From: a virus
IMG/VR virus record: IMGVR_UViG_3300020020_000095
Location: 1-40,431 of that record
Reading direction: 5' to 3' (one strand)
DNA length: 40,431 bases
Shown: piece by piece, positions 17,740 through 39,286 of the stretch
How the letters are laid out: the number at the start of each line of letters is the position of its first letter
Numbering within the stretch: position 1 is the stretch's first letter
Program-made: the position numbers and the translations under genes
The notes under the pieces: model-generated
Database searches by the model: none
Told to the model about the DNA's origin: nothing
What the model saw: only the letters and a program-made list of their open reading frames with translations

Positions 17740-18062
17740 TGCCTAAATACAACGCACCGCACATTTCGATCCCATTTCGCATTGACGGTGCTAATGGTGC
17801 TGTTGCTGCTGAACAGGATTCTGAACAAGAAATCATGGATTGCGTGGAAGTGGTACTCAGATATCCTCAGGGGCATAGACCTGAGAAGCCTGAGTTTGGT
17901 ATCCCCGATTTGACCTTCCACGAGCATCCAGATGAGCGTAGAATTCAGGAAGCTCTAGTTGTGTGGGAACCTAGGATTGAGATGGCAGTGAGTCAGCCAG
18001 TAGTAGATATAGTTGATGAGCTGCTTCAGAGGATCAGAATAGAGAGGGACACCAATGAGTGA
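17739..18062 (+). CDS. baseplate wedge protein, gp25/gpW-like
   Basis: The 107-residue protein has the gp25 core: ISIPFRID near the start, then EQEIMDCVEVVLRYPQGHRP and FGIPDLTF, and a C-terminal helix VVDIVDELLQRIRIE. It links the baseplate wedges to the sheath and starts sheath assembly. It overlaps baseplate J by 8 bases. Length is as expected. Confidence 0.88.
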   Translation: MPKYNAPHISIPFRIDGANGAVAAEQDSEQEIMDCVEVVLRYPQGHRPEKPEFGIPDLTFHEHPDERRIQEALVVWEPRIEMAVSQPVVDIVDELLQRIRIERDTNE

Positions 18063-19428
18063 ACAGTATATTGAAGTACCGATCGAGACTGATCCTGCAA
18101 TTCTAGAACAGGATAGTTTCGATTATTTTCAGGCGGTATTTCCCGAGTGGGTGCCTAACGATGCTAATGTAGAAACCATCCTAATTGAGGCTGTCGCTAA
18201 AATGACGGCGGAAGCTAGAGACGTTGCGAGCGCAGTTCCCACAGATATTTTCAGATACTTTGGCGCTCTCGTAGGGATTGAAGTACAGGAGGCTACATTT
18301 GCGGTTGGGACTACTGATTGGGTTATGATTGATAACCAGGGATACACCATCCCTGCGGGTACTCAAATTGGGATTGAAGTAACGGGAGATTTGACTGTCC
18401 CATTTGAGACTATCGAAGATGTGGTGATCCCTGAGGGTTTTACGGATGCCGATGGTGTTCAGATTAGAGCTATCGAAGAAGGCGCAGACGCTTCAGGTAT
18501 CTCTGGCCCGGTATCTCTGATTGATACTCTTGACTTCGTAAGTACGATTACGCTGGTTGCGGTAACGTCCGGTGGAGAAGATGCAGAAGATGATGATGAG
18601 TATTTGAATAGGCTCAGGACTCGATTGCAACTACTCGCGCCTAGACCCATTCTAGCCAGAGATTTTGCTATCTTCGCTCAGGACATTGGGGAAGTGGAGA
18701 GAGCCGTAGGAATCGACAACTATTTACCTACGGTTACGAACTTTACTGGCAACGTGACAAGCGGCTCTCCGACTGTTGTCTCACTTTCCAGCTTCAATGG
18801 TATTACCGTTGGATCATGGATTCAGGGTGCCAATATTCCATACGGTAGTACAGTCGTTTCAATTATTCCAGGAACCTCGATCACTCTTAGCAAGAACGCT
18901 ACAGGCACTAATGGTGGCAACTCGATGACTTCTACGGGAGTCTATGGACAGGAACGAGCCGTTACTGTGTCGGTGGTTGATGAGGACGGTTTGGCTTTGA
19001 GTGCTCCAATTAAGGATGAGGTTGATGCTTACTTGGAAGATGCCAGAGAGTTGAACTTTATCGTTGAGGTCATTGACCCTGTATATACAGCGGTTGATGT
19101 GAACTTTGTTGGGAAAGCTGTAGCAGGGTGGGACCCTGAAGATGTAGAAACAAGAGCTGAGGAAGCAGTTGCTGCTTATCTATCTCCGGCCAATTGGGGT
19201 TTGCCACGTGAAACTGGAGACGTACCTTTCTCTCCGCAATGGATTAACCAGACAGTAATTAGATATCTAGAGCTAGCACAGGTCATTAACAATGTAAGTG
19301 GGATGGATTACATTACAGCGTTGACATTCAGACGCGGTGCGGACGCTTTCGCCACTACAGATATTACGTTGGCGGGAGCAATTCCGATGCCTACTGCTGG
19401 GAGTGTCACAGGAGATATTACACTTTAA
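18055..19428 (+). CDS. baseplate J-like protein
   Basis: Baseplate J forms the wedge ring that triggers contraction. The 457-residue product has the family core including PAGTQIGIEVTGDLTVPFET, EEGADASGISGP and TSGGEDAEDDDEYLNRLRTR. An extra module of about 70 residues (226-296) interrupts it: a Thr/Ser/Gly-rich beta unit with SGSPTVVSLSSFNGITVGSW. Similar small modules occur in unrelated phage structural proteins. The core resumes with ERAVTVSVVDEDG. It ends at TAATG shared with tail protein I. Confidence 0.88.
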   Translation: MSEQYIEVPIETDPAILEQDSFDYFQAVFPEWVPNDANVETILIEAVAKMTAEARDVASAVPTDIFRYFGALVGIEVQEATFAVGTTDWVMIDNQGYTIPAGTQIGIEVTGDLTVPFETIEDVVIPEGFTDADGVQIRAIEEGADASGISGPVSLIDTLDFVSTITLVAVTSGGEDAEDDDEYLNRLRTRLQLLAPRPILARDFAIFAQDIGEVERAVGIDNYLPTVTNFTGNVTSGSPTVVSLSSFNGITVGSWIQGANIPYGSTVVSIIPGTSITLSKNATGTNGGNSMTSTGVYGQERAVTVSVVDEDGLALSAPIKDEVDAYLEDARELNFIVEVIDPVYTAVDVNFVGKAVAGWDPEDVETRAEEAVAAYLSPANWGLPRETGDVPFSPQWINQTVIRYLELAQVINNVSGMDYITALTFRRGADAFATTDITLAGAIPMPTAGSVTGDITL

Positions 19429-21209
19429 TGGCTGTTCCAATTACTAGTCCAGTAGCAGAAGAACTCTACGAGATTATGTCCCCGTTGGCGTATACCGACG
19501 CCAGTTTAGGCCATCCGCTTCTGGCCTTCTGCTAATCTCTTGCAGGTCCACTTCAAGAAGTATGGGAATTGATCGGTAAGTATCCTATTGCTAGTAGAGA
19601 AATAGATAACTGGTTTGCCATCGGGAGTTTTGAGGGTGATGCAGCTGATTGGGGTCCTTATCAGAATGGAGTGAACGGCACAGTTACTCTGACCGATGAG
19701 ATTGATGCTCATAGCGGAGAAAAGGTAGCAAAGGTAGTTGCTACTACTGGCACTAGCGGTGATCTTGGTGTGGTCACTGTCTTGGACGCGGCTATGCCCG
19801 TTGTAGCTGGAGAACAATGGGCCGTAGCTAGCTACTCTAAGGCAGGAACAACACCTAGACAATTTTGGGTTATCGCAGCTTTTTACAACATCAACAATAC
19901 TCATATAACTTCTATAGGCGGCGCTCAGATTATGAATAACACGGAGGATTGGACGAGGTCGCCTATTTTGAATCTAACGGTTCCAGCTCTTGCAGTAAAG
20001 ATGACACTCTATGCGGTGTTTGAAGATCCCATTCAAGGAGAAGCCAACTACGTTGATTCCTTTATAGTCCGTAAAGGCGTAGGATTCCCCAGTGAAGAAT
20101 ATGTGGATGGTGATTTCCCTGGCTACGAGTGGGAGGGTGAACCTCATCTCTCTAGAACCATTAAACATCTTGCACAAGATCCGCCGCCAGAAGATTACGT
20201 TCCGTGGTCTAATCTTCTAAATATTGACAAAACACCTTACAAGGCATTGCCTTGGCTTGGCCAATTGGTGGGAGTTTCAACACCCTCACCGCTAACGGGA
20301 GAATCTACCATTGACCATGAGGCCAGGATTAGATCGCTAGTCAGAGATACGCCTGGATTTAGACGCGGCTCCCCCGCTGCTATGAGAGGAGCAATTCAAC
20401 CATACTTAACGGGGACTAAAACTGTTATTCTACGCGAGCGGAGTGGAGGCGCAGCCTATCAACTCCAAGTCCTAACACGTAGAAATGAAACACCGACACA
20501 AGATTGGGAAGCTACTAATTTAATCACTCATAGTAGTCTAGAAGTTGGCTTAGGTAGTCACAGTGCAATCAATGGAGCTACATTAGGTCACAATGGCATT
20601 CCTAACATTCCAGTAGCTCACGGAGTTATGGGCGTGGTAGTTTCATGTCCTCAAGGCGGAACTCATTCTGGCTTGAAATTTAATGGTGAACCTATAGTCA
20701 TTGATCCTGGTGAATTCTACACATTGCAAGCCAATGTTCAAATGGCTCCTGGTAGAGAATGGTATTTCTACGTTGACCATTTGTTGGGTGCTGGTGTTGT
20801 TCAAACATCAACAGCAACATTTACCGCAGACGGCACTTTGCAATTTAAGGCTTTTACGTTCCAAGTTGATCCAAGTGCTGATCAAGTGGTTGCGTATATT
20901 CTTCGTACTCCGGCGGATTCAGCTTCTGGGGGTACACAGAATATTATATGGGATGCAGCACAGCTAGAAAAGAATCCAGCACCAACGCCGTATATTTATA
21001 CGGAGGACAATCCCGTAAGTAGACCAGCTGGATTTGGTAGTGTAGGTCGAGCGATGATTAGCCAGAAGCCCGGTGGGATCGTTATCACATATGCCATTCT
21101 TGATGGTAATGATTACCAGTTGCTCTTTGAGAATCACGCAGATTATCAAGATGTATTTACAGATTATACAACCTATGAGGGCGTGTTTACAGATACGCCA
21201 GGAACGTAA
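19428..21209 (+). CDS. tail protein I with two CBM-like inserts, interrupted by in-frame TAA
   Basis: From the ATG that overlaps the baseplate J stop, codons 1-35 read MAVPITSPVAEELYEIM...HPLLAFC, then TAA, and the same frame continues SLAGPLQEVWELIGKYP for 558 more codons. Joined, this is a continuous tail protein I N-terminus; the stop replaces one residue. No ribosome binding site precedes the TTG at 19569. Two carbohydrate-binding-like modules are inserted, about codons 62-242 (ending YVDGDFPGYEWEGEPH) and 362-527 (ending TPYIYTEDN). The core between them has PYKALPWLGQLVGV and FRRGSPAAMRGAIQPYL. It connects wedges to fibres and may bind host glycans. Confidence 0.72.
19533..19535 (+). 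other. in-frame TAA in tail protein I
   Basis: The codon lies between TGC and TCT with open reading frame on both sides and no gap in the family pattern LL-x-F/Y-x-x-x-L. TAA differs from CAA (Gln), GAA and AAA by one base. Readthrough, a population variant, a true nonsense mutation or a sequencing error would all look like this. Confidence 0.8.
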
Positions 21210-21223
21210 AGGAGGTGAAGTAA

Positions 21224-22462
21224 TTGTCGAGACTTACAAGTACAAGGTTTGGAATCTCTTATCCCAATCCTGCTACTAGAGATGAGCCTGCTGATGTACC
21301 GTCTGATCTTCAACTACTCGTTTTTGGTATCGAAGGTCAAGCAACTAGATATTCGCAGGGACTATTCTCAGCTAGACCGGCGGCTGGTAAGATTGGTAGT
21401 TTCTACTACGCTACTGATCAAACATTGATTTACTATGACACCGGAGCAGCATGGATTACGATTGGTCCTCCTGCCGCTGGTTCTATTGGCCCTACTCAGC
21501 TAGCTAATGACGCGGTACAAACTGTTCATATCGCTTCTGGAGCCGTAGGCGCCGATGAAATCGCAACGGACGCAGTTGGCACAAGTGAGATTGCTCCAGG
21601 CGCCGTGTCAGATGTTGAAGTAGCTGCTGCTAATAAAGACGGAGCTAGCGGTACGTATTCGATGCGTCGTCTTGGTACCTCAGCTGGAATGGCGGCTGCG
21701 GGTACTCATGCAGCACAACATGCTCTAGCTGGTGCTGATCCTCTACCTGCGAATTCTGTAGGAGCTTCACAAATTCAGGATGATACAGTGGGCCTTGCAG
21801 AGTTGACTGCTGCTGTAGAGGAAAGGCTATTCCAGCCTGGATTCCCGATTCCTTGGCCATATGCAGAAGCGAGTATTCCTACTGGTTTCGCTGCTATGTA
21901 TGGGCAAGCAATCTCAAGAGCATCTAATCCCGTTATGCACGCTGCCGCCGCTGCTGCTAGTTATCCTCACGGAAATGGTGACGGTTCTACTACGTTTAAT
22001 GTCATGGATACGAGAGGACGTTCGCTATTCGGTAAGGATGACACAGGCGGTACAGCCGCCAACAGAATCACGTCCACGTATAACGGCACTACTCTAGGTG
22101 GAGTATTCGGTACGCAGGAGGTTACGCTTACACTTGCTCAGACGCCTGTTCACTCGCATACGGTAAACTCACACAATCACGGTGGAGTTGTTACTACAGT
22201 CGGTGACCATGACCATGCCCATCCCATTTCGGTAGGCGTAGCGAATTTCGCATCAAGCTGGACTCCTGTAGGTGGTAATGCGATGTACGGTTTCGAGGGA
22301 GGAAGCATCACAATTTGGGGATGGCCCTACACTTGGCCTAGTGGTTCACACAATCACGGTATTCCATCGGAAGCACCTGGCACGAACTCACAAGGTAGCG
22401 GTGGAGCGCATCCTAACCTCCCACCAGGTATTATCGTGAACTGGATTTGTAGACTCGGATAA
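21224..22462 (+). CDS. tail fibre with collar domain
   Basis: The 412-residue product has a short N-terminal adaptor region, then a stalk of imperfect repeats (QLANDAVQTVHIASGAVGAD, EIATDAVGTSEIAPGAVSD) and a C-terminal tail-collar domain as in T4 gp12. There PWPYAEASIPTGFAAMYGQA starts the domain, HSHTVNSHNH and DHDHAHP supply metal-binding histidines, and HPNLPPGIIVNWICRLG ends it. It probably binds the host surface. TTG start after GGAGGTGAAGTAA. Confidence 0.85.
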   Translation: MSRLTSTRFGISYPNPATRDEPADVPSDLQLLVFGIEGQATRYSQGLFSARPAAGKIGSFYYATDQTLIYYDTGAAWITIGPPAAGSIGPTQLANDAVQTVHIASGAVGADEIATDAVGTSEIAPGAVSDVEVAAANKDGASGTYSMRRLGTSAGMAAAGTHAAQHALAGADPLPANSVGASQIQDDTVGLAELTAAVEERLFQPGFPIPWPYAEASIPTGFAAMYGQAISRASNPVMHAAAAAASYPHGNGDGSTTFNVMDTRGRSLFGKDDTGGTAANRITSTYNGTTLGGVFGTQEVTLTLAQTPVHSHTVNSHNHGGVVTTVGDHDHAHPISVGVANFASSWTPVGGNAMYGFEGGSITIWGWPYTWPSGSHNHGIPSEAPGTNSQGSGGAHPNLPPGIIVNWICRLG

Positions 22463-22473
22463 GGAGAGAGAAG

Positions 22474-22851
22474 ATGTTTACATGGAAAACTAAGGTGGTT
22501 TTTCACGACGGACAGGAAGCGACAGTATATTCCGTGTCCCGTCCGTTTGTGCAAACAGTCGGTACGGAACTATCAGCTATGTTGAGAATTTCGAGCTATG
22601 ATGGAGAAATGTGGTTCCCATTCCCGGCTAAGACAGTTGAGGTCGAGGAAGTCAATAAAGAAGGAATTCTTGAAATTTTCCACGAGAAAGATATTACTCA
22701 GATCACTCAGAAAGCTTTTGAGTTCAAAGAGTCGGACAACGTAGACGATCACGTTCTGGGAGATATCATTCTACAAGCTGTGAAGTATTACCAAGTAGCT
22801 GCTGAAGTTATGGAACAGGAGGTGAGTGCGAGTGAAGCAGGTAAGGAATAA
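22474..22851 (+). CDS. hypothetical protein, 125 aa
   Basis: The ATG follows AAGGAGAGAG directly after the fibre gene. The protein is acidic, with a strand-rich first half (WKTKVVFHDGQEATVYSV) and a helical end. No domain recognised. Position between fibre and lysin could suit a fibre chaperone or a small baseplate part; neither can be shown. Confidence 0.65.
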   Translation: MFTWKTKVVFHDGQEATVYSVSRPFVQTVGTELSAMLRISSYDGEMWFPFPAKTVEVEEVNKEGILEIFHEKDITQITQKAFEFKESDNVDDHVLGDIILQAVKYYQVAAEVMEQEVSASEAGKE

Positions 22852-23134
22852 AATGTCCGTTGAAGCTCATGAAGCTGCAAAGACCGCGGCAGACAATGTA
22901 AGGAAGATGGCCGAACAGCAGATTGAAGAAGCTGAAGCCAGAGTCGCGGCTACGGAACCTCTTGTCTACACTGTGGAGGAAGTTACAAACGAAAAGGGAA
23001 AGACTGTCGATACAGGTATGGGCGCGGAAGCCAGAGCTGAAAAAGGAATGTTCATCCTAAAGCGGAAGGGTGCTAAAGAAGCATTTATTCTGCCCCCCGA
23101 TCAGATGCAACACTTTGAGGAGGTAAGTAGTTAA
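22832..23134 (+). CDS. helical hypothetical protein, about 100 aa
   Basis: AGGAGG lies 9 bases before a GTG at 22832, which I take as start; an ATG at 22853 with GGTAAGGAA is the alternative. Residues about 10-40 form a long Ala/Glu-rich amphipathic helix (coiled-coil-like), followed by VYTVEEVTNEKGKTVD and a C-terminal FILPPDQMQHF. Unknown family. It overlaps the previous gene by 20 bases and precedes the lysin. Confidence 0.6.
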   Translation: MKQVRNKMSVEAHEAAKTAADNVRKMAEQQIEEAEARVAATEPLVYTVEEVTNEKGKTVDTGMGAEARAEKGMFILKRKGAKEAFILPPDQMQHFEEVSS

Positions 23135-23135
23135 A

Positions 23136-24119
23136 ATGGAGTATTGGGAGAGAGACTACGTTTATGATGTTGGAGTAGCTCCCCAACTGAACTTCCCACG
23201 TCCACTTTATCCACCTGATAGTCCTGTGGGTGGTTCTGTTCCTGGCCCGGACGTTAAAGCGTACAAGAGAATTGCGTGGCATCTAGGCCGTTGGGCAACT
23301 GTTGATGGAGTGCCTATGGCTACCCCATCATTCAGTGAGGAATACACCAACGCATTCGCTCATGGTGAAACGAATGTAGGCAAGTCTGGTATTGAGGGAA
23401 TCCAGAGACAGGCCAACATCGCTGGTGCTAATGGAGCAATCGGCCAGCGTACCTTCAACGTGATGATCTACGCTAGAATTCCAGACGGGCTACCTAATGC
23501 TGGTAAGTTCCCACTAGCTATTGATGCCGTTGCTAAAGAGCTTCTGGAAGATGCGTACCAAAATTTCGGACTTGAGGATATTGTCACGCCACCGCCGGTA
23601 TCCTCGACTTCTAAACGTCAGGTGGCTCTCGCACACTTGGAAAGGAGAGTAGGTTACACGGAACAACCGTGGGGATCTAATACAGACACTAGATCCGATG
23701 GAATCAAGACGGCACAGGTACACACAGCACAGGGTGGAACGTGGTTAATCGGAAAGCCCTGGTGTGGGTGTTGGTGCTACTACGCTCTGGAATCTGCGGG
23801 AGTGGAAGGAATTGACAGTTCACTCGCAAGTGTGGCTTTAATCGAAGAGAACGCGAAAGCAGGTAGGAAATGCTTTACGAGTTGGACACTAGATCGCTCG
23901 AAAGTAAAACCCGGCGATCTAGTTGTGATCGGAGGGTACGGAGTACACGTAGAGACTGTAAGAGGAAAGCCACTAGCAGATGGGAGTGTGCCAACTTATG
24001 GGGGAAATACATCAGCAGGCATTGCGGGATCGCAATCTAACGGAGGCGGAGCCTACAGAAGAGTCAGGTTCCCAAGCGAAGTCAGAGGGTTCGCCACAGT
24101 CAGATATCCTGGCGAATAG
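23136..24119 (+). CDS. endolysin, PG-binding-like plus CHAP domain
   Basis: The 327-residue enzyme would open the cell wall at lysis. Residues about 36-115 resemble a PG_binding_1 domain (ending GANGAIGQRTFNVM). Residues about 160-327 form a CHAP amidase/endopeptidase: nucleophile C210 in GKPWCGCWCYY, H271 in GGYGVHVET and N291 in TYGGNTS. There is no signal peptide, so it needs a holin. The ATG follows GAGGTAAGTAG. The following small membrane genes complete a lysis region. Confidence 0.85.
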   Translation: MEYWERDYVYDVGVAPQLNFPRPLYPPDSPVGGSVPGPDVKAYKRIAWHLGRWATVDGVPMATPSFSEEYTNAFAHGETNVGKSGIEGIQRQANIAGANGAIGQRTFNVMIYARIPDGLPNAGKFPLAIDAVAKELLEDAYQNFGLEDIVTPPPVSSTSKRQVALAHLERRVGYTEQPWGSNTDTRSDGIKTAQVHTAQGGTWLIGKPWCGCWCYYALESAGVEGIDSSLASVALIEENAKAGRKCFTSWTLDRSKVKPGDLVVIGGYGVHVETVRGKPLADGSVPTYGGNTSAGIAGSQSNGGGAYRRVRFPSEVRGFATVRYPGE

Positions 24120-24207
24120 AGTACCCAATTGGGAGAATGAGCCTGCGTCCGATAGCATGATGGATAATGAGACTTTGGAGCGCATTAAAGCCGAGACAGA
24201 AGAGTAG
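23998..24207 (+). CDS. small acidic ORF overlapping the lysin
   Basis: A 69-codon frame begins at an ATG inside the lysin 3' end and continues 88 bases beyond its stop. The product is Glu/Ser-rich and ends NETLERIKAETEE, likely disordered then helical. GGGAG lies somewhat far upstream. Something should occupy 24120-24210, but a shorter frame starting MMDNETLERI would also do. Function unknown. Confidence 0.4.
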   Translation: MGEIHQQALRDRNLTEAEPTEESGSQAKSEGSPQSDILANRVPNWENEPASDSMMDNETLERIKAETEE

Positions 24208-24210
24208 AAC

Positions 24211-24405
24211 GTGACTAGCGCAAATGGGAACGGAGATAGATGGAAAGTTACCAAGGAGAAATTTCTGATGTTCTCCGGCCTATTCTCGTTCTTTTTTCAG
24301 CTAGTCCATGTGCAAGTGTTAGGGGGTGTCCTGCATTATGAGTTTCTTCTAGGTTCCCTCGCGCTATGCGGCGTCAGTATTGCTTGGTGGAGTGACAAGA
24401 AATGA
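24211..24405 (+). CDS. putative holin, 64 aa
   Basis: The GTG-started product has a charged N-terminus (NGNGDRWKVTKEK) and two hydrophobic segments, FLMFSGLFSFFFQLVHVQVL and FLLGSLALCGVSIAWW, then a basic end (SDKK). Size, two-pass topology and place after the lysin are those of holins, which form membrane lesions at a set time. The ribosome binding site is weak, as is often so for holins. No family proof. Confidence 0.6.
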   Translation: MTSANGNGDRWKVTKEKFLMFSGLFSFFFQLVHVQVLGGVLHYEFLLGSLALCGVSIAWWSDKK

Positions 24406-24592
24406 AAGGAATGATCTGCGGAATATCATGGAAGTATTGTCGCCCGCAACTAAACAGCACCTCTCTGTTTGGTGGATTACGCATAGGAGTAGATTAAGAC
24501 TATGGGCGTATCATAACGCATGTATGCTTACGTTCACGCTCATACTGAACATTGTTACATGGTCTTTGATAGTTCTATCTATTGTGATTTGA
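24392..24592 (+). CDS. small membrane protein, possible second holin
   Basis: This frame overlaps the previous gene. Starts at GTG 24392 or ATG 24428 are both possible; neither has a strong ribosome binding site. A basic amphipathic part (THRSRLRLWAYHN) precedes one C-terminal membrane segment (MLTFTLILNIVTWSLIVLSIVI, last 22 residues). It may be an antiholin or holin partner of the upstream protein; this is inferred from topology and place. Confidence 0.5.
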   Translation: MTRNERNDLRNIMEVLSPATKQHLSVWWITHRSRLRLWAYHNACMLTFTLILNIVTWSLIVLSIVI

Positions 24593-24603
24593 GAGGAGGT
24601 TAA

Positions 24604-25131
24604 ATGAACGCTAAAGAAGGCGAGCCTGGTAAAAAAGGTGAGCAGGCCATCGGACAGCAAGGCGGCAAGGGTGGTGAAGGTGGACGTGGTGGTAAAGGCA
24701 CGCCTGTAGGTAAAGGCGGCGCAGGTGGTGAAGGAGGTAGAGGCGCGCAAGGTAGGCAAGGTCCACAAGGTCCACGAGGAGAAGCTGGTAAATACGAGGC
24801 TATTCATCCCTATAGATGGGCAGCTTTGGGTGTTTGGATCATCGTGTTCACTCTTGCTACTGGCTATGCTCTCAGAGAAACCAGAGAACAGGCTGTATCA
24901 CAAGAGGCTCTTTCTGTCGAAAACAAACAACGAATTGCGGACATTCAACAATCACGCATTGATTCGTGTAAGGCAAACTACGAATCAATCAGAGAAGTGT
25001 TCTTCGTACTTGTTGGTCGGCCAACAGATAGAAGAACGCGAAGGCGAGCGGTTCGCTTTAATGAGTACATTGATCAGAAGAAAATGGGATGCGTTGCTCA
25101 AACCGATCCCGATACTAACGGAGGTAGCTAA
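24604..25131 (+). CDS. collagen-like membrane protein
   Basis: The 175-residue product starts with about 60 residues of Gly-rich, partly Gly-x-y repeats (GRQGPQGPRGEAGK at the end), then one membrane segment (about 72-88), then an outside helix and a domain with two cysteines (C122, C163) and SRIDSCKANYESIREVFF. Related one-pass proteins with the C-terminal pattern occur near phage lysins. The collagen-like part faces the cytoplasm if the membrane protein is N-in. The ATG follows GAGAGGAGGTTAA. A role in lysis is inferred. Confidence 0.7.
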   Translation: MNAKEGEPGKKGEQAIGQQGGKGGEGGRGGKGTPVGKGGAGGEGGRGAQGRQGPQGPRGEAGKYEAIHPYRWAALGVWIIVFTLATGYALRETREQAVSQEALSVENKQRIADIQQSRIDSCKANYESIREVFFVLVGRPTDRRTRRRAVRFNEYIDQKKMGCVAQTDPDTNGGS

Positions 25132-25197
25132 ATGTACATCGGTGGTGGACTACTGCTGTTAATCCTGATTATCCTGGTAATCATCTTTCTAGCGTAG
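25132..25197 (+). CDS. tiny membrane peptide, 21 aa
   Basis: The ATG directly follows the previous stop and has GGAGGTAGCTAA upstream. The peptide is MYIGGG followed by fifteen hydrophobic residues, so it is nothing but one membrane span. Very small peptides of this composition are found in phages next to lysis genes. It may tune holin timing; this is inference. Confidence 0.65.
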   Translation: MYIGGGLLLLILIILVIIFLA

Positions 25198-25205
25198 GGG
25201 AGAAC

Positions 25206-25478
25206 ATGGCTTATAAAGCTCTGACGTATGTGAATCTCCCGCCCAATAACAAGAAGGCTCCGGGAGATACTATCACTCAGAAGGAACTCGACGACGCTGT
25301 ACCCAAGCAGAGTGAAGCTGAAATCAAGCAGTTGCTGGATCAGAAGGCGATCAGTAAGAACATGGATGCACCGATTGACAAAGCTCATGCGCCTATCGAA
25401 ATCCCGCCTTCAGCTAATCCTATTTCCATTGATGTTGTTTCAGGAGACGTAGGTGAAGGGGCTGATGCAAATGGTTGA
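25206..25478 (+). CDS. hypothetical protein, 90 aa
   Basis: The ATG follows GTAGGGGAGAAC. The N-terminal part reads YVNLPPNNKKAPGDTITQKE, then a helical stretch with EAEIKQLLDQKAI and a Pro/Ala-rich acidic tail. The PGD-x-I-x-x-x-E(L) pattern and small size recall short phage proteins that attach to tail fibre or capsid, but I do not claim a family. It overlaps the next gene slightly. Confidence 0.65.
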   Translation: MAYKALTYVNLPPNNKKAPGDTITQKELDDAVPKQSEAEIKQLLDQKAISKNMDAPIDKAHAPIEIPPSANPISIDVVSGDVGEGADANG

Positions 25479-26049
25479 AATCGTAGTTCACGAAGTAGGC
25501 AATTGGAAATGGCACACAGTAGTTGAGAAATGGTCTGAAGAAGCATGTGACTTCGCACGTAAGAAGTTGTGGCTACCTAAGCTGGCACCTGTGTCGTCTT
25601 TTGAGCTTAGGCGGCTCATCGGTGCTTGCGAAGAAAGTCTAGAAGTACCAGGTAATCTACTGCTTAACGCAGGTATCGCTCATATGCTAGATCAGACGCA
25701 TGGAGCAACTACCGATCCTCTCAACAATGCCAACACACGCTTGGGAGTAGGTAACTCGGCTACGGCTGAGGCTGCTACTCAGACTGACTTGCAGGCTGCG
25801 GCAGGCGCAGCTAACAGACAGTTCAAGCTTATGAATGCAACGTTCCCGTCTAGGTCTGCACAGACGGAATCTTATCAGTCGGATTACACTTCCGGTGAGG
25901 CTAACTTCATCTGGAATGAATGGGGAGTCGATAACGGTAATGCCACGGGTACTACTGTTGTAGCTCCTATGCTCAACCGTAAGGTAGCGTCGTTGGGTAC
26001 GAAGGCTACAGGTACTTGGACGCTTACTGCAACTCTGACCATTTCATAA
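25471..26049 (+). CDS. phage structural protein of unknown role, 192 aa
   Basis: I start at MVEIVVHEVG because AAGGGG lies 9 bases before it. The protein has the run NLLLNAGIAHMLDQTHG, then NNANTRLGVGNS, then ANFIWNEWGVDNG and a C-terminal LNRKVASLGTKATGTWTLT. I recall this pattern from many phage and metagenome proteins in tail or surface gene clusters. Biochemical function is not known. It is followed closely by another beta-rich protein. Confidence 0.65.
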   Translation: MVEIVVHEVGNWKWHTVVEKWSEEACDFARKKLWLPKLAPVSSFELRRLIGACEESLEVPGNLLLNAGIAHMLDQTHGATTDPLNNANTRLGVGNSATAEAATQTDLQAAAGAANRQFKLMNATFPSRSAQTESYQSDYTSGEANFIWNEWGVDNGNATGTTVVAPMLNRKVASLGTKATGTWTLTATLTIS

Positions 26050-26050
26050 C

Positions 26051-26512
26051 ATGAGGTCAATCTACGAGGCACATACAGAGGCCGACGTAGGCTTCACCAC
26101 AGTTGAATCTGTCTTTGGGGTAAAAGCTGATGCTGGTCATGCTATTGATCTTCTGGCTCTCAGCTTTTCCCTTGACGGTATTACTGCCGATGCAGCACCT
26201 GTGCTGGTTGAGTTTTGCACGGCCACGTTTGCTACTAACGCGCCAGGAACCAACTCAACCGCAGTTACGGTACACAATACGTCTGGTCCCAGAATCGCAG
26301 AAACCTTTGCTGCTGCTAGAGAGTGGACCGCCGCACCTACTGTTCTAGTAGCAGTACAGGCTCTTGAATACGATCCATATAAAATGATCGTTAAGGACTC
26401 ATTCCCTCTAGGTGAAGGATACGATTTCCCTGTAGCTGAGGGATTCGTGGTTAGAATGACAGCGGCTGTCACAGTGAATGCTCGCGTCCACGCAAGGTGG
26501 GCTAGAGTCTAA
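26051..26512 (+). CDS. beta-rich hypothetical protein, 153 aa
   Basis: Starting one base after the previous stop, this protein is Ala/Val/Thr-rich with alternating pattern, from MRSIYEAHTEADVG to a final VHARWARV. It looks like a jelly-roll-type virion protein. No motif identifies it. Close spacing suggests it works with the preceding gene product. Confidence 0.6.
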   Translation: MRSIYEAHTEADVGFTTVESVFGVKADAGHAIDLLALSFSLDGITADAAPVLVEFCTATFATNAPGTNSTAVTVHNTSGPRIAETFAAAREWTAAPTVLVAVQALEYDPYKMIVKDSFPLGEGYDFPVAEGFVVRMTAAVTVNARVHARWARV

Positions 26513-31528: not shown

Positions 31529-31879
31529 TTAGCAGTAACCACCGGCTGATGCCCAATAGTAAGTACCATGATCGAGAACGCGGGGTTCTCCTAGGGTACA
31601 GTACGAGGCTGTATAGCCGTAACCATTCTTGTATTTAAGTGGCGGCCACACAAACGGCCCTACGTACACACACTGGAACCACCCAACCATCCTAGCTTGC
31701 CAATCTAGGAAGTAAGCATAAACGCCAGCGATACCATGCCAGCAATATGAGTTACCTCCACCACCAGGATCAATCACACTCTCGATAGGATTAACCGCCT
31801 GTGCTGGTTCGACGACCGCAACATTCGCAGCCACGAAAAGGCTAGCGAGTAGAAGTACGATGAGTGCGATACGCTTCAT
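31529..31879 (-). CDS. exported four-cysteine protein, 116 aa
   Basis: MKRIALIVLLLASLFVAANV and a cut site near AQA/V form a clear signal peptide. The mature ~88 residues are rich in Tyr, Trp and Gly with four cysteines (46, 70, 94, 116; the last is the C-terminus), typical of small exported domains that bind something. The ATG follows GGGAGGGAGTTGA. No known family. It lies between two exported enzyme-like proteins and may be a partner or inhibitor of either. Confidence 0.65.
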   Translation of the reverse strand: MKRIALIVLLLASLFVAANVAVVEPAQAVNPIESVIDPGGGGNSYCWHGIAGVYAYFLDWQARMVGWFQCVYVGPFVWPPLKYKNGYGYTASYCTLGEPRVLDHGTYYWASAGGYC

Positions 31880-31895
31880 TCAACTCCCTCCCAAC

Positions 31896-32537
31896 TCAAC
31901 AACCTGATCCTACCCAATGCGAACCATCCCTACCTGACCAACGCATGTAACCTGCCGTGATAGCCTGTCCTGCTGGTGAGTACCAACTCATCCAACTTCG
32001 CATGACTAGATATCCTCTCGATCTAGCAGCATTAAATGCGTCATATACATAAGCATAGAAGGTTCCAGACATAAATTGCATCCATCCACTTGCACCTGAA
32101 CCTTGACGGTTTGGTACCCAGGAAGTATGCCCACCCTCACTTGCCGAACATGAAATAAGCCAACCGCGTGTACCAGGAAATATCTTATTGGCGTAGTCGG
32201 TAGCAAGCCACCAATTAAGGTTAGCCGTGAGTACGGCTCGTAGATCATCCGTACAAGTGCTTTCCCTTTCCCGCCATACTCGTAGAACATAACGCCTGTA
32301 TGCAACGGGTCGTTTGGCGTACCTGCCGTTTGACTTTGTTCGCTTTCTACCAAGAGTTTCCTGACAATTCCACGTTGACCTGACTACGTGATGTACTTTG
32401 TGAGATAGTCTCTCACCGTATCCGTACTTGTGCTGTCCATTGCTAGTACGTACTTCCTTCAGACTATGCGCTTCCGCTCTCTCTACACTGACTCCCATGA
32501 AGGCGAGTACAGCTACGATAGTAGCAGTAAGCTTCAA
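31896..32537 (-). CDS. exported lysozyme/transglycosylase-like protein
   Basis: TTG start after GGAGGTCTTACTT. A signal peptide (about residues 1-23, ending RAEA) is followed by a basic region (24-90) and a transglycosylase-like domain: E134 in SCSASEGGHTSW and GASGWMQFMSGTF with Q154, the two hallmarks of the SLT/resuscitation-factor fold. It would cleave peptidoglycan from outside. Since the phage already has a lysin and a lytic hub, this exported enzyme is an extra activity, perhaps for wall remodelling or exclusion. Confidence 0.72.
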   Translation of the reverse strand: MKLTATIVAVLAFMGVSVERAEAHSLKEVRTSNGQHKYGYGERLSHKVHHVVRSTWNCQETLGRKRTKSNGRYAKRPVAYRRYVLRVWRERESTCTDDLRAVLTANLNWWLATDYANKIFPGTRGWLISCSASEGGHTSWVPNRQGSGASGWMQFMSGTFYAYVYDAFNAARSRGYLVMRSWMSWYSPAGQAITAGYMRWSGRDGSHWVGSGC

Positions 32538-32585
32538 AAGTAAGACCTCCGTATAGATTACTAGGCACTCTCTCCTAGAGTGTTG

Positions 32586-32900
32586 CTAGTTGTCTACCCT
32601 ATCACCCCCCTCCTCCAAAACTTGTGCAAGTTTGGTTTCATCAATCTCTTCAATCTCATGTAGAATCAAATCAAGCTTGGCCTGCATCGCTCTCGTATCT
32701 CGGTTCTGCGACGACTGAATCAGGAACAGCATGATCCACGTTACCACGGTGGTAAACGTGTTGATGATCAGCTGCCAAGTGTCTGAAAAATCAAATAGAG
32801 GCCCGCTAGCAAGCCAAATAACACAAAGGGCAACAGCAATAGTGAACGCCATAGGATGCCCCACAGCGTTGATCCACCAGTCCGCGAATCTTCTAAACAA
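32586..32900 (-). CDS. low-affinity iron permease family membrane protein
   Basis: The 104-residue product has the family's pattern: GHPMAFTIAVALCVIWLASG (first span, about 17-33), then FSDTWQLIINTFTTVVTWIM (second span, about 43-61) and FLIQSSQNRDTRAMQAKLD, ending in an acidic helix. PF04120 members of this size are common in bacteria, where actual iron transport by the short forms is poorly shown. The start is TTG with GAGGA upstream, and it overlaps the preceding frame by 133 bases. It could act in host ion balance, superinfection exclusion or as a holin-like pore. Confidence 0.78.
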   Translation of the reverse strand: MFRRFADWWINAVGHPMAFTIAVALCVIWLASGPLFDFSDTWQLIINTFTTVVTWIMLFLIQSSQNRDTRAMQAKLDLILHEIEEIDETKLAQVLEEGGDRVDN

Positions 32901-33046
32901 CTACGTGGTCCTCGATTCTTCTCTCCATGTAATCTCGACATATGCAAACCATCACTGAGCAAGTCACCACGATCTTCTTTACTAAAACGGCTGAGTAGTT
33001 CGTGATCTTTGGGATGCACACCTACTGTCATAGTCTTTCTATCCAT
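32768..33046 (-). CDS. hypothetical protein overlapping the permease gene
   Basis: Starts at an ATG inside TGATG shared with the previous stop. About 48 residues (MDRKTMTVGVHPKDHELL...GPRSC) lie outside any other frame and look like a small soluble domain. The rest overlaps the permease gene out of frame and encodes one hydrophobic span (WRSLLLLPFVLFGLLAGLYL). Whether the full length is made, or a frameshift joins the N-terminus to the permease, cannot be told from sequence alone. Confidence 0.5.
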   Translation of the reverse strand: MDRKTMTVGVHPKDHELLSRFSKEDRGDLLSDGLHMSRLHGEKNRGPRSCLEDSRTGGSTLWGILWRSLLLLPFVLFGLLAGLYLIFQTLGS

Positions 33047-33165
33047 CACCACTTAAACTTCCTCTCGGGCCAGTGTTTGTACTCGGTCTTGGTTTTTCCG
33101 ATTCCGGTAAACAAAAAGAAGAGAGCCAAGAAGATACGAGTGAAAGGATGGTTGAAATCACGCAT
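33046..33165 (-). CDS. tiny membrane protein, 39 aa
   Basis: The ATG overlaps the end of the previous gene (ATGCGTGA). The peptide has a basic start, one short hydrophobic segment (IFLALFFLFTGIG, 11-23) and a basic end (HWPERKFKW). It probably sits in the membrane. Coupled to both neighbours. Function unknown. Confidence 0.5.
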   Translation of the reverse strand: MRDFNHPFTRIFLALFFLFTGIGKTKTEYKHWPERKFKW

Positions 33166-33361
33166 CTTCCCTTTCCCTCTGTTCCATCTGTAGATCGAAC
33201 TGCACCCTCTCCAACAATCCGATGAAAGCCGTGAGACTTTCTTCCCCACGCATACTCACACCATATCCCAATGCACCATCGTCACCAATGTATTGCACAA
33301 CTAGAATTCCACAGGTTACATGCGCTCCCGGTGGTGTCGGTACTGAAAAGTCGTCAAGCAT
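33158..33361 (-). CDS. hypothetical protein, 67 aa
   Basis: I start at ATG 33361, which overlaps the RuvC-like gene's stop (ATGCTTGA). The product begins MLDDFSVPTPPGAHVTCG, has a strand-rich part (ILVVQYIGDDGALGYGVSM) and a charged C-terminal helix. GAGGGAG lies just upstream. Family not recognised. It is probably a small cytoplasmic protein of the replication operon. Confidence 0.6.
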   Translation of the reverse strand: MLDDFSVPTPPGAHVTCGILVVQYIGDDGALGYGVSMRGEESLTAFIGLLERVQFDLQMEQREREDA

Positions 33362-33842
33362 TCTCCCTCCAAAATCCTGGGTCGTCCACCATTGTAGCAA
33401 ATTCCTTGGCACTTTGCTTACCGATGAACTGGTTTCCGTAGCCGAACATGCACCACTGTAGCAAATGCCGCGAAGCATCCATAGCATGTTCCCACGCCGC
33501 TCCCCGCTTGAACAGGCCAAGCTGTTTCAAAGCCGGGTTAGTGTAATACTGCTTGCCTGTGCCTGCTTTTTGTTTAAAGCACCCACAATCATGCTCAGCA
33601 ATTTCAGAGTACAATCTAGCCACTCCAATCAATTGTACTGGAAATAGCTCAGCACCGCCTTTACCACGACGGAATTCAAAGTCTTCGATGATAATGAACC
33701 GAGGCTCAAACTCCGTCAACCGCTCCCACAATACGTCCACGTCATCGACGTTTTGAAAGGGCGCGTAAGTCAGGTGTCCATCCTTAAGTTTGGCAAAGCA
33801 GTAACCCGTCATAATTCCTGGGTCAATGGCGATTACCTTCAT
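33354..33842 (-). CDS. RuvC-like Holliday junction resolvase
   Basis: The 162-residue protein has the RNase H-fold nuclease pattern: D7 in IAIDPGIMTGY, E53 in FIIIEDFE and D122 in HAMDASRH. Such enzymes resolve branched DNA from replication and recombination before packaging. Length fits small phage RuvC proteins. ATG overlaps the preceding stop by 4 bases. It lies with polymerase and nucleotide genes, as expected. Confidence 0.8.
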   Translation of the reverse strand: MKVIAIDPGIMTGYCFAKLKDGHLTYAPFQNVDDVDVLWERLTEFEPRFIIIEDFEFRRGKGGAELFPVQLIGVARLYSEIAEHDCGCFKQKAGTGKQYYTNPALKQLGLFKRGAAWEHAMDASRHLLQWCMFGYGNQFIGKQSAKEFATMVDDPGFWRENA

Positions 33843-34429
33843 GCTACCTCTATCCCTCTATACCGTCTTTGTTGTTCCATTTGTTTATCTCCAGTGGGTA
33901 CGTACAAATCCCGTTGATCTACAGGCTTCAAAATTTCTGGGAGTCCTCTAGCTGCTCGACCCCACTTAATATCTTTACGGTGACGAACCTCGTTATTGAT
34001 GCGAGCCTCCAATAGCGCATTCATAGCCCGTTCAATAGTACGTTTCTGGACTCGTCGCTGTTTTCCCTCCATTATGCTTTGCCAACGATGATGACTCGCC
34101 ATACTGCATCTTCTTGCAGCTTCCTTTCTACCGAGACGACGTTCAAGTTCCTCAAAGACGAAACGAAATCGGGAAACCATTACGTACCCGTAAGCTAGAG
34201 AATCAAGCTTCTTCTTCGCAACTCTATGCGAACGGCATCGTTTGCAGTGAGAATGAAATGATGGCGACAACCCGGTATTCCTCTTGTAGAAATATTTCTC
34301 TGTTGCTGGCAGCCAAACACCACCCTCAGGATGAGTAAGACCTGCACAAAGCTTCATGCCATTCTTGATTGAGTAGGGTTTCCTCGGAACGCCTTCCCTT
34401 CCTCGGCCTACTCCCTTAGACTTCGTCAC
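33839..34429 (-). CDS. basic protein with possible zinc site, 196 aa
   Basis: GTG start one base after the previous stop. The protein is very basic. Residues 26-67 (KLCAGLTHPEGGVWLP, then FHSHCKRCRSHR) offer C28, H33, C62 and C65 as zinc ligands, a pattern I recall from phage proteins with a small zinc ribbon near an HNH-type or DNA-binding part. The rest is helical and Arg-rich. No nuclease motif is visible. Probably DNA- or RNA-binding. Confidence 0.6.
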   Translation of the reverse strand: MTKSKGVGRGREGVPRKPYSIKNGMKLCAGLTHPEGGVWLPATEKYFYKRNTGLSPSFHSHCKRCRSHRVAKKKLDSLAYGYVMVSRFRFVFEELERRLGRKEAARRCSMASHHRWQSIMEGKQRRVQKRTIERAMNALLEARINNEVRHRKDIKWGRAARGLPEILKPVDQRDLYVPTGDKQMEQQRRYRGIEVA

Positions 34430-34430
34430 T

Positions 34431-34652
34431 TCAACTGTCTTTCCTCAGAACCAGATCCTCAATTGTCTTTTCACGCCCTTCAATCCTACATGCTCCATTT
34501 GATCGGTTGTCAGACGGTGATACGATTTCCATGTTAGCCAGTACCTCGTCTGCGGCTGCATGACAAGAGGTTCCTGGCGCCTTCCCACCATGACTATTCC
34601 TTTTGGACAATATACGCTTGCCAATTTCTTCAGGGTCACGTTGATCCCTCAT
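34431..34652 (-). CDS. hypothetical protein, 73 aa
   Basis: The ATG overlaps the stop of the tiny zinc protein gene (ATGA). The product begins MRDQRDPEEIGKRILSKRN and has an acidic and helical C-terminus (EGREKTIEDLVLRKDS). No motif. A second frame here (34445-34639) is less likely because it lacks the coupled start. Confidence 0.5.
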   Translation of the reverse strand: MRDQRDPEEIGKRILSKRNSHGGKAPGTSCHAAADEVLANMEIVSPSDNRSNGACRIEGREKTIEDLVLRKDS

Positions 34653-34750
34653 TCCAACTCCTTCGTACCAGCACCGCAGCATGGACACTTACGACACCCA
34701 GGGCCATAGCTCCAAGCCGCTAGACAACGCCAGCATATGACGACCTTCAT
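34649..34750 (-). CDS. tiny zinc-ribbon-like protein, 33 aa
   Basis: Coupled by ATGA overlaps on both sides. The 33-residue product has CWRC (6-9), then CRKC and C-C (19, 22, 24, 25), enough for one zinc knuckle, with a short Trp/Tyr/Gly loop between. Such small phage zinc peptides often bind nucleic acid or a host protein. The frame and coupling are clear; function is not. Confidence 0.6.
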   Translation of the reverse strand: MKVVICWRCLAAWSYGPGCRKCPCCGAGTKELE

Positions 34751-34989
34751 CGGGGTTCCTTCGTACCAGCAGCCAGCCTCACAATCGAAAGGGCAACCTC
34801 CTTGACTGGCTCATCCTTTAGCCGTTGATACTGGCCGACAATCCACCGCGCATCACGTTCGATTTCCGCTAGGCGTTCCTCTACCTGGCGAAGCTCGGCA
34901 TGGTAGGGGCACTCGCACCACCAGCCCTCGGAGTCCCTAACAGACTTCTGACGATGCCTCGGTGTGTCGGTGGTGGGGGTGGTATTCAT
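34747..34989 (-). CDS. hypothetical helical protein, 80 aa
   Basis: ATGA overlap with the polymerase stop. After a Thr/Pro-rich start (MNTTPTTDTPRHRQK) comes WWCECPYH, then a long helix (AELRQVEERLAEIERDARWI) of coiled-coil type. It may make dimers. Family unknown. Confidence 0.6.
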   Translation of the reverse strand: MNTTPTTDTPRHRQKSVRDSEGWWCECPYHAELRQVEERLAEIERDARWIVGQYQRLKDEPVKEVALSIVRLAAGTKEPR

Positions 34990-37442
34990 TCTGTCTCCTT
35001 AAGATCGCCCCATGTAGGCCCAACTGAGATATCTGCCTTGTAGGGGAAGTCCCATCCGATACTGTCCCTAGCCGATGATTCAATAGTTTCCTTCATAACT
35101 TGTGCTGTTTCGGATATATGATCCTCTCTAGCGCAGACCACAATGGAATCATGAACCGTAATGCGAACTTGGGCCACTTCGGGATTGAGTAGCTCATTAA
35201 CCAGACGGATAACCGCGAATAGAGTAATATTCGCAGCAATGTTTTGAGGCTCGAAACTGATTGCCTGATTAACTGCATGGATATACGCCTTCTTCTCTTG
35301 TGGGATTATATAGAATCTACGCTTATGACCGAATGGCGACTGTAGCTCACCCTTCTCCAACATTTGCTGTTCAACTAGTTTACGCCATTCTTTAACCTTA
35401 GGAAATCGTCCCCACCAGAAGTCGATGTAAGCCTGCGCTTCCTCCTGTGGCATATGATACATCTGCGCGAAGGTAAATGCGCTCTGCCCATATGCTACAC
35501 CGAAATTAATGTTTTTAGCGCGGACATATTGTTCGTATGTATATCCCTCTCCATAGAACTGCGAAGCAACTTCTTTGTGTAGTGATCTATTGGTGTCGAG
35601 GTAAATAGCTTGGAGTTCTGTGTCTCCTGAGAGGACAGCGATTGTTCTAAGCTCTGCCTGAGAAAGGTCAGCAGAAATGAACTGACACCCTGGATCAGCC
35701 ACGAATACACGTCGAATGTTCGGTAGCCCCTCTTTAGGTCTAGTGACATTCTGCATGTTCGGATTCTTGGACGAAAGCCTTGCAGACTCGGTGCCGTGAA
35801 TGTTGAAGATAGTATAGATACGTCCATCGGGAGATTTCTCCGCTCGAATGGTAAAAGGCTCGATGTAGGTGTTTCTCTGTTTATCAAGTGCTTTCCACCT
35901 ATCCAGAGTTTCAGCAAAAGCCTTGACTCCGTTGCGATTTACTCCGTTCCTGAGTCTAAACTTGTCCCGGATAATTTCCTGTCGAACATCTGCGTCAACC
36001 GCACGTGGATCGGCTCGCATCGGATTGCGCTCAACTCTGGGTCTATCAAGATCGTGCTGCAATCCCCACTTGTCATACAGTAGCTCGACAAGCTGTTTAG
36101 GCGAATTAGGATTCAGTTCATCCTCTCTTGCAATCTCCCGTAATACTCCCTTCCACTCATGTAGCCTAGGCCAAACTTCAGTCTCTAGAATATCACATGC
36201 CGCGTCAATGTCCCACAAGTTACCATAGCTCTCAACCTCGGTGAGAGCATTGCTGAGAGGTATGAGCGTGGCCTTGTAAGGTCTATCGTAAACATTATCG
36301 TGAACTGCCCGTTCTCGCAGAACATGGTAAAGAGCGAGGGACCCAGCTGTATCCATCCCGTTGTATTCATACAAGTCTATCCTTGTTCTTTTATCAGGGA
36401 GAGTAGTTGGCCAATCTGACCAGGCTCCCTTGCCTTTCTTGAAGTCACGTACACTTCCCGGTTCGTACTTGGGCCATCCAAGTTCATCTTTAAGCAGCCA
36501 TTCAAGAGAATGTCCCCCCGCTCCTGATTCAGGATCGCCAGGACGTTCATCAAGTGCGTAACTGAGCAATCCTGTATCTTCATCGACACGCGCTGCGATG
36601 CCAAACTTCTTCAACTCCTTTGTGTCGTACTTTCCGAACTGCCAGAGATATCTTACATCTTCAATGGTGAGAAGCTTACCGATATATTCTCTACGGAAGG
36701 TTTCGTCCGAACATGGACCGATACCGAAAGTGACTGCTCGCTCGGGTCGTATTGCGAATCCGATACATGCCAGTCCAGAATATCCTCCTTCGATATCGAC
36801 AGCAACGAGGGTATTAGTTCCTCCAGAAATGGTATCAAACATTTCATCTGCCCATCGCTTAGCTTCATCCAAGTCCTCCGTCCATGATACTTTAGGAAGT
36901 TTGGGAGTTGGTAGTGGTGAGATAGCTAGTCGGAAATCTCTGACAAGCTCAGGGAACGTGGCATCATCACGAACGACCACAGCAGGATTGTTAGTGACAA
37001 TGACTCTCTGATCCTTACCAGCTTCACTATCTCTATGATGCACGTAACCACGATTCATTCCAATATTGGCTTCACCTATGACTCCCCATGCAGCTTCACG
37101 TCCGGCAGCGATTACCGTGTCAGCCTCTCCAATCTCCGACTCAAGGCGTGGCGCACAGCAAGCTTGAGCAAGACCAAATCCCTTCTCGTTACCATCGGAC
37201 TTACAGAGTACGACGTTAGTAGCCAGTACCTCATCCCGTTTCACTCCATGTAGTTGCAGTAGGTGATCCAAGACCCTACCAGCAGGCCCACTGAATGATT
37301 TTCCCGCGAGGGATTCAAAGTGTCCAGGTGAACGTGAGACTACCGCGATCTTCGCATCTTCAGGGCCAGTCGTCCTAGAGAACGACCGATCCTTAAAAGG
37401 ACACTTATCGCAAAGAGCGTATGGTGCTTTAGGCAGCTTCAC
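34986..37442 (-). CDS. DNA polymerase A fused to a UDG-like domain
   Basis: The 818-residue protein copies the phage genome. Residues 1-175 resemble family 4 uracil-DNA glycosylase with C11, C14, C80 and C95 placed as its iron-sulfur ligands, but GEAPG is replaced by SRSPG, losing the usual Glu. Residues about 210-375 are a 3'-5' exonuclease (D216/E218, D273, Y360/D364). The polymerase has motif A DLSQAELR (D592), motif B RAKNINFGVAYG (K643, F647) and motif C VHDSI (D765), with Ser instead of Glu. There is no 5'-nuclease domain. GTG start coupled to the gene before. Confidence 0.93.
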   Translation of the reverse strand: MKLPKAPYALCDKCPFKDRSFSRTTGPEDAKIAVVSRSPGHFESLAGKSFSGPAGRVLDHLLQLHGVKRDEVLATNVVLCKSDGNEKGFGLAQACCAPRLESEIGEADTVIAAGREAAWGVIGEANIGMNRGYVHHRDSEAGKDQRVIVTNNPAVVVRDDATFPELVRDFRLAISPLPTPKLPKVSWTEDLDEAKRWADEMFDTISGGTNTLVAVDIEGGYSGLACIGFAIRPERAVTFGIGPCSDETFRREYIGKLLTIEDVRYLWQFGKYDTKELKKFGIAARVDEDTGLLSYALDERPGDPESGAGGHSLEWLLKDELGWPKYEPGSVRDFKKGKGAWSDWPTTLPDKRTRIDLYEYNGMDTAGSLALYHVLRERAVHDNVYDRPYKATLIPLSNALTEVESYGNLWDIDAACDILETEVWPRLHEWKGVLREIAREDELNPNSPKQLVELLYDKWGLQHDLDRPRVERNPMRADPRAVDADVRQEIIRDKFRLRNGVNRNGVKAFAETLDRWKALDKQRNTYIEPFTIRAEKSPDGRIYTIFNIHGTESARLSSKNPNMQNVTRPKEGLPNIRRVFVADPGCQFISADLSQAELRTIAVLSGDTELQAIYLDTNRSLHKEVASQFYGEGYTYEQYVRAKNINFGVAYGQSAFTFAQMYHMPQEEAQAYIDFWWGRFPKVKEWRKLVEQQMLEKGELQSPFGHKRRFYIIPQEKKAYIHAVNQAISFEPQNIAANITLFAVIRLVNELLNPEVAQVRITVHDSIVVCAREDHISETAQVMKETIESSARDSIGWDFPYKADISVGPTWGDLKETE

Positions 37443-37678
37443 TTATGTCCACTTTCATGAGTTATACCCTCGCTGCTTACAGGCTCTTCAACAACCCAAG
37501 TCCCACGTTTTCGCTCGTAGTTCTCAATCGCTATCGTGTCACTCATCATTTCCAGGTAAAATCTCCACCTACCCCAAGCGATCGCTCGTTTGTAAAGTCT
37601 CCATTTGGGTAGGGCTTGCCAACGATCAAACCATTCTGTAAATTTGTCCTGATAGTAGTTGACTTCTGCGCTACTCAT
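37439..37678 (-). CDS. hypothetical Trp/Arg-rich protein, 79 aa
   Basis: ATG overlaps the preceding zinc-ribbon gene by 8 bases and its stop overlaps the polymerase GTG. The product (MSSAEVNYYQDKFTEWFDRW) is rich in Trp, Tyr and Arg in its first 50 residues, then acidic and polar. No known motif. Its place just before the polymerase suggests a replication accessory protein, by context only. Confidence 0.6.
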   Translation of the reverse strand: MSSAEVNYYQDKFTEWFDRWQALPKWRLYKRAIAWGRWRFYLEMMSDTIAIENYERKRGTWVVEEPVSSEGITHESGHK

Positions 37679-37817
37679 CTAGTTCCCACTTGTGGCCGCA
37701 GATTGGACATTCAACATAAGCCGGCCGTTCCTCAGTTTCCTTCCTAATCACGAACGGACTCACAGTAGAATGAAGCTCGTCTGCCTTCGGACACCACACT
37801 AGAACATCTAGTCTCAT
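37671..37817 (-). CDS. small zinc-ribbon-like protein, 48 aa
   Basis: The ATG lies in TAATG shared with the kinase stop. The product begins MRLDVLVWCPKADELHST and ends ECPICGHKWELDE. C9 with CPICGH near the end gives three cysteines and a His for one zinc site. It is probably a DNA- or protein-binding knuckle. Coupling on both sides and the zinc pattern support it. Confidence 0.65.
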   Translation of the reverse strand: MRLDVLVWCPKADELHSTVSPFVIRKETEERPAYVECPICGHKWELDE

Positions 37818-38452
37818 TACACCCGTTCCCACATTCCACCACCTATATGTCGAGGTTCTAGCCTATCCAGGTGTATTAACATTTCGTTGATCTTGTCGTA
37901 CAGATCATCCAACGTACCGTCGTTCATCAACGTGTAGTCCACCATCTTGTCCGGGAACAATTCCTCGCCTCTGTGCGGGTCTTGCACTTCAAAGCCCGGT
38001 CTGCGTAGCTGCACTACATAACCACCGCAAGTATTGACTCGTCTGGCATTACTCTCAAACCGACAGTCTGTAATTACGATCTTCTTACCGTGATAGTACC
38101 CGTCGATAGGTAGAGTCAAGTCATCCCAAAATGTATCCCACCATACCTGCTTACTAGCCTCATCACCCATACGCTGCAAGAACTGACGAAAGGTGCCTGG
38201 CCCGTCGATAAACGCGAAATTACCCTCTCTCTTTGCCGCATCCTCACTACTAGCGTATTGCACGACTTCGACGTGAACGTTAGGATCGTTCTTCCACTTG
38301 TCAATCTCATGGTAAGGAATATCAAGTAGAGCAGCCACAGAACGCTTAAGAGGGTCGGCAAAAGCCTTGCGTTCAAAACCATGCTGCTTGATCAGATACG
38401 CAGCCACCGTATCCTTCCCGGAATTCTTAAGCCCCTTAAGTCCGATGATCAC
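37817..38452 (-). CDS. deoxynucleoside monophosphate kinase
   Basis: The 211-residue protein has a P-loop GLKNSGKDT (7-15), then AFADPLKRSVAALLDIP and a later ITDCRFESNARRV, as in T4 gp1-type dNMP kinases. These phosphorylate dNMPs, turning degraded host DNA or new nucleotides into dNDPs. GTG start overlaps the previous stop (GTGA). It works with the MazG-like enzyme and polymerase nearby. Confidence 0.82.
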   Translation of the reverse strand: MIIGLKGLKNSGKDTVAAYLIKQHGFERKAFADPLKRSVAALLDIPYHEIDKWKNDPNVHVEVVQYASSEDAAKREGNFAFIDGPGTFRQFLQRMGDEASKQVWWDTFWDDLTLPIDGYYHGKKIVITDCRFESNARRVNTCGGYVVQLRRPGFEVQDPHRGEELFPDKMVDYTLMNDGTLDDLYDKINEMLIHLDRLEPRHIGGGMWERV

Positions 38453-38673
38453 GGTAGCACCAAATCCAATTGAGAACTATTCGTGTTCTTCAGAGTAGCA
38501 TAAAGCTGTCCGAACGGATCGACTATCTGTACGTCTGGACTTTCACGCGGTCCTCTGATTATGACTCCCCACTTCAAAGGAGACTCCCAAAGCATTCCAT
38601 CCTGCCCAACGTCACAAACGCGGGTGTATAAATCCGACTTCAGGAATTCTATAAGTTCTCTCCGCTCATTCAT
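38449..38673 (-). CDS. hypothetical protein, 74 aa
   Basis: Coupled by ATGA and GTGA overlaps on its two sides. The product begins MNERRELIEFLKSDLYTR and ends LYATLKNTNSSQLDLVLP. It looks like a small mixed alpha/beta protein. No family recognised. Confidence 0.6.
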   Translation of the reverse strand: MNERRELIEFLKSDLYTRVCDVGQDGMLWESPLKWGVIIRGPRESPDVQIVDPFGQLYATLKNTNSSQLDLVLP

Positions 38674-38888
38674 CGGTGGCTCTTCCTAGTCTGTACTCCT
38701 ATTACTCTTTGTCCCCACAGGCGTACTACCCAAAGTCTGTGTCCGTAGAATTTCTGGTTCATACGGAATCTCTTGGTCTTGAAGGTTACTCCTGCGAAAA
38801 TTCTCCACCATCGACCAGCAATCGTGAATCTTAGTTGAGGACAGGGTATCTTCTTGTAGGTCTTACTAACGGGTAGATATGGATTCAT
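38670..38888 (-). CDS. very basic hypothetical protein, 72 aa
   Basis: ATGA overlap with the MazG-like gene stop. It is rich in Arg, Lys, Trp and Phe (WWRIFAGVTFKTKRFRMNQK) and so may bind nucleic acid. No domain known. Arginine-rich composition is steady over its length. Confidence 0.55.
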   Translation of the reverse strand: MNPYLPVSKTYKKIPCPQLRFTIAGRWWRIFAGVTFKTKRFRMNQKFYGHRLWVVRLWGQRVIGVQTRKSHR

Positions 38889-39286
38889 CGGTCGCTGCCA
38901 CTTCCGCGCAACTTGTCGCGTTCCTTGCGATCCTGCAACTTGCGTAGGTTCATTTCCATTGTCCTCTCCATACGAAGCCCCAGCTCGTTGTGCAATTGCG
39001 AGACGTACCAGAGAACGTCACCTAGTTCTTTGCGGAGTGCGATAAGCCTGTCATCGGTGAATTCGCCGCCATCATCACGCAGAGCCTTCCAAACCTCTTC
39101 TGATACTTCTCCTGCCTCACCACACAGTTTGCCAGCACAATACCCCACTCGCAGAAAAGCTGACGCAGTAGATGTACCTGGTTTAAGTTCTATAGTCTGT
39201 TTGTGGGCTTGCATAATCTCGTTGACGGCCTCGATGTATGGCGCTGCCGTTTCTGGCGTCTTGTCTTGGTAGTCGTTCATGTTCAC
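38885..39286 (-). CDS. MazG-like nucleotide pyrophosphohydrolase
   Basis: The 133-residue protein has the MazG metal-binding helix pattern: E57, E60 and E63/E64 in KLCGEAGEVSEEVWKAL and E87/D90 in KELGDVLWYVSQL. It hydrolyses (d)NTPs to monophosphates, and phage MazG proteins may change nucleotide pools or alarmone levels. The monophosphates are substrates for the kinase two genes downstream. Start GTG (39286, overlapping GTGA) or ATG two codons later. Confidence 0.82.
   Translation of the reverse strand: MNMNDYQDKTPETAAPYIEAVNEIMQAHKQTIELKPGTSTASAFLRVGYCAGKLCGEAGEVSEEVWKALRDDGGEFTDDRLIALRKELGDVLWYVSQLHNELGLRMERTMEMNLRKLQDRKERDKLRGSGSDR

Follow-up and report, generated by a model that had tools for sequence, protein, structure and literature searches.

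Phages that have reassigned TAG or TGA carry suppressor tRNAs for these codons (PMC7886860, PMC9523058), and in the crAss-like phage OKSC01000115 a UUA suppressor tRNA has been described without reassignment of TAA; from genomes of the crAss-like group, a first step toward UAA reassignment has been proposed (PMC7886860). The base following a stop codon matters as well, as a U at position +4 lowers stop-codon read-through in bacteria (PMC5289835). Here, we analyzed a virus record of 40,431 bases (IMGVR_UViG_3300020020_000095; hereafter the window) in which an in-frame TAA interrupts a tail protein I-like gene. We propose that this TAA is probably an isolated nonsense substitution, that is, either an assembly or base error or a recent defective allele, in a gene that is otherwise intact.

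The interrupted gene follows directly on a baseplate J-like gene, a gene order that Arthrobacter phages share and that fits a Tail_P2_I protein, and its ATG (19428-19430) shares a base with the J stop TAA (19426-19428; Table 1). We name it tail protein I-like only, because the intact protein of a relative (P0001) scored 14.9 bits against the Tail_P2_I profile over residues 257-358, below the curated cut-off of 20.6. An earlier note on this DNA had placed an in-frame TAA at codon 36 of the frame opened by this ATG, and this is what we find: past the TAA, 557 sense codons stay open up to a TAA at 21207-21209, and the probability of such an open frame by chance is about 3e-13 given the base composition.

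Table 1. Features of the interrupted gene and its neighbors (positions in the window).
Feature	Position	Strand	Basis
Baseplate J-like gene; stop TAA overlaps next ATG	18055..19428	+	Pfam PF04865 E=1.8e-17; PHROG 6 baseplate wedge subunit
AGGAG, Shine-Dalgarno-like site of interrupted gene	19410..19414	+	Sequence; same in G001
First 35 codons of tail protein I-like gene, then TAA	19428..19535	+	Conserved in G001, dN/dS ~0.07
In-frame TAA, codon 36; GAA in G001	19533..19535	+	Sequence, G001 alignment
Remaining 557 codons and stop; CBM_4_9-like stretch inside	19536..21209	+	Domain match; dN/dS to G001 ~0.14
Downstream gene, tail-collar/fibre-like; AGGAGGTGA precedes its TTG start	21224..22462	+	Pfam PF07484

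The closest relative, IMGVR_UViG_3300019884_000005 (G001), is 95.9% identical to the window over 18479-26062. Its equivalent gene is a single frame of 593 amino acids whose start and end match those in the window; it aligns to the window without gaps, codon for codon, on both sides of codon 36, where it encodes Glu. The claim that the two sides join as family sequence is borne out, and the same gapless alignment rules out an indel near the stop. The suggestion that the replaced residue was Gln did not hold, as G001 has Glu and the homologues mostly have Glu or Asp. The low dN/dS on both sides of the stop, together with a downstream frame in which comparison with G001 reveals no second stop and no indel, means that the stop is recent, missing from the real molecule, or suppressed; no decay has followed, and we infer that the stop is recent. 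The codon after the internal TAA is TCT in the window and GCT in G001. Around the stop (19508-19577), the two sequences differ at 16 positions in 70 bases, mostly synonymously, and this patch is possibly a short recombination tract or the product of a mixed-strain assembly.

We extended the comparison by using an alignment of J to collect loci and searching these with a profile of the segment, which gave about 30 matching loci, several of them near-duplicates. In these loci, which include actinobacteriophages, the residue at codon 36 is mostly Glu or Asp, with some Asn, Ser or Ala, and in none of the loci is the gene stopped or split at this position. The gene after J in Arthrobacter phages reads PLLRYMEG or PLLRFMDG in this region, an Actinomycetospora endophytica contig that also matches the profile reads PLLRFCES, and in two more distant relatives (G003 and G004) the codon-36 position is Ser within an uninterrupted frame of 205 codons. 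A tblastn search of phage records with the protein of the interrupted gene gave no match. Like the window, G001 and the Arthrobacter phages Vibaki, Jinkies, Bumble, Abba, and Lymara carry a tail protein I-like gene after J with the homologous segment PLL-x-x-x-[E/D], although in several Arthrobacter phages this segment sits deeper within the protein than in the window. All of these relatives are uninterrupted; the window alone has TAA at the acidic position. By these alignments, the stop is specific to one assembly among the sequences compared, and a gene boundary at codon 36, for which the earlier note had proposed to look for homologues split into two genes, is excluded because no homologue is stopped or split there.

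General reassignment of TAA, already dismissed in the earlier note, is ruled out by the use of TAA as a terminator and by the lack of other interrupted genes. In a set of 53 window ORFs picked by hand, 20 end in TAA, including J and the interrupted gene itself, and no other supported internal stop was found among about 50 window ORFs compared with G001 and a second genome (G002). G001 shows two apparent stops in frame opposite window ORFs 25453-26049 and 33158-33520; both fall in the first part of ORFs that probably start further downstream, and we therefore did not count them as read-through. We likewise set aside an open stretch of 145 codons that follows a TAA in G001, since conservation with the window ends at about 20 residues. 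Stop usage differs by strand: plus-strand genes (1967-30824) end in TAA 18 times, TAG 11 times and TGA twice, and minus-strand genes (31529-40427) in TGA 13 times, TAA twice and TAG once, a difference to which ATGA overlaps of neighboring minus-strand genes probably contribute. We also observed that a small plus-strand ORF (497-763) aligns to G002 partly in one frame and partly in another, which suggests an indel difference, and that the family A DNA polymerase encoded on the minus strand (34986-37442) has a uracil-DNA-glycosylase-like domain at its N-terminus.

Given that the closest relative has GAA at codon 36, the simplest history would be a single G-to-T change at 19533 (GAA to TAA); the Ser codon TCA is likewise one step from TAA. 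Within the isolated nonsense substitution, it is plausible that the assembled base is wrong, and possible that a defective allele arose recently in the phage population that was sequenced; these and the other degrees of likelihood given here are our judgement, and none was computed. Assembly errors that create stops in coding sequence are rare, which counts against an error, and a nonsense allele that became fixed in a baseplate gene is expected to be lethal, which counts against a defective allele. If the base were real and unsuppressed, a 35-residue peptide would be made and no working protein. On this reading, the stop is not a decoding device. Among the options raised in the earlier note (read-through or suppression, a lethal or conditional change, and an error), an error or mutation is favored, suppression stays unlikely, and programmed read-through falls away.

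A tRNA-like gene in G001 also counts against an isolated nonsense substitution. We found no tRNA in the window with ARAGORN, the window being a fragment of the phage genome; in G001, the program predicts a tRNA-Stop with anticodon TTA (UUA) on the minus strand at L005:8268-8343 (G001:28268-28343), which matches the Rfam tRNA model with 50.6 bits. If an ochre-reading tRNA of this kind, encoded by the phage beyond the contig or by the host, suppressed a real stop, full-length protein would be made, in keeping with the intact frame on both sides and with the crAss-like precedent. The tRNA-like gene, however, lies outside the part of G001 that the window covers, as homology between the two stops at about L005:1702 and the window ends more than 6 kb short of the site. 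Moreover, its carrier has GAA at codon 36, and no read-through gene was found in G001. As read from the printed structure, the cloverleaf is good apart from the anticodon arm, which is 19 nt long and has a T.C mismatch, a G for the usual U33 and a C for the usual purine 37. Two further tRNA-like elements occur in another relative, G005, at G005:4231-4277 (L083:1501-1547, minus strand) and G005:15679-15749 (L084:1501-1571, minus strand); both have paired acceptor and T arms and short or irregular middles, and the 17-base T arm of the second is identical to that of the G001 element. No comparable elements were found in five shuffled windows, nor in the other relatives searched. The degenerate middles of the G005 elements cast doubt on whether the UUA anticodon of the G001 element works, and overall we consider suppression unlikely. 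A 17-mer from the anticodon arm of the G001 gene matched three other viral contigs with no tRNA at any of the sites, and BLAST of the whole gene returned generic tRNA similarity only.

A restart after the stop, giving a shortened working protein, is very improbable. Beyond the stop the frame stays open and is conserved, a restart coupled to a short upstream frame could in principle occur, and a scripted scan found a 5-base Shine-Dalgarno match at GTG 19770. The nearest in-frame start, TTG 19569, is nevertheless the poor start that the earlier note described, with a match of 3 bases only against AGGAG for ATG 19428, and initiation there would, as that note also held, lose an N-terminal segment that is conserved in the homologues. 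Least credible of all is the reading of codon 36 as a site of programmed read-through or as a genuine boundary between genes, which the open and conserved sequence on both sides would allow, but which is contradicted by homologues that all lack the stop and, for read-through, by the U at +4, a context that is not permissive.

Finding one in-frame stop in a phage contig from a metagenome is no evidence of recoding, and the tRNA-like elements are a more curious by-product of this analysis than the stop itself. Were the TAA both real and subject to suppression, the phage would stand at the start of UAA reassignment, and it is a highly doubtful proposal that this phage group has taken the first step, one member having gained a UUA-reading tRNA-like gene with an irregular anticodon arm and this phage already tolerating, in a gene for a late structural protein, its first TAA. 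Compared with phages that have reassigned TAG or TGA, the window is similar in that a late structural gene is interrupted by an in-frame stop, and the group has, in G001, a nominal stop-reading tRNA-like gene (PMC7886860, PMC9523058). Unlike in those phages, there is one such codon in one sequence, TAA still ends many genes, and the tRNA-like gene is aberrant and was seen in G001, outside the part that the window covers. The crAss-like phage offers another parallel: although its tRNA differs from tRNA-Gln by one base, and the G001 gene has an irregular anticodon arm and no identified parent tRNA, OKSC01000115 and G001 are alike in combining a predicted UUA tRNA with no sign of TAA reassignment (PMC7886860).
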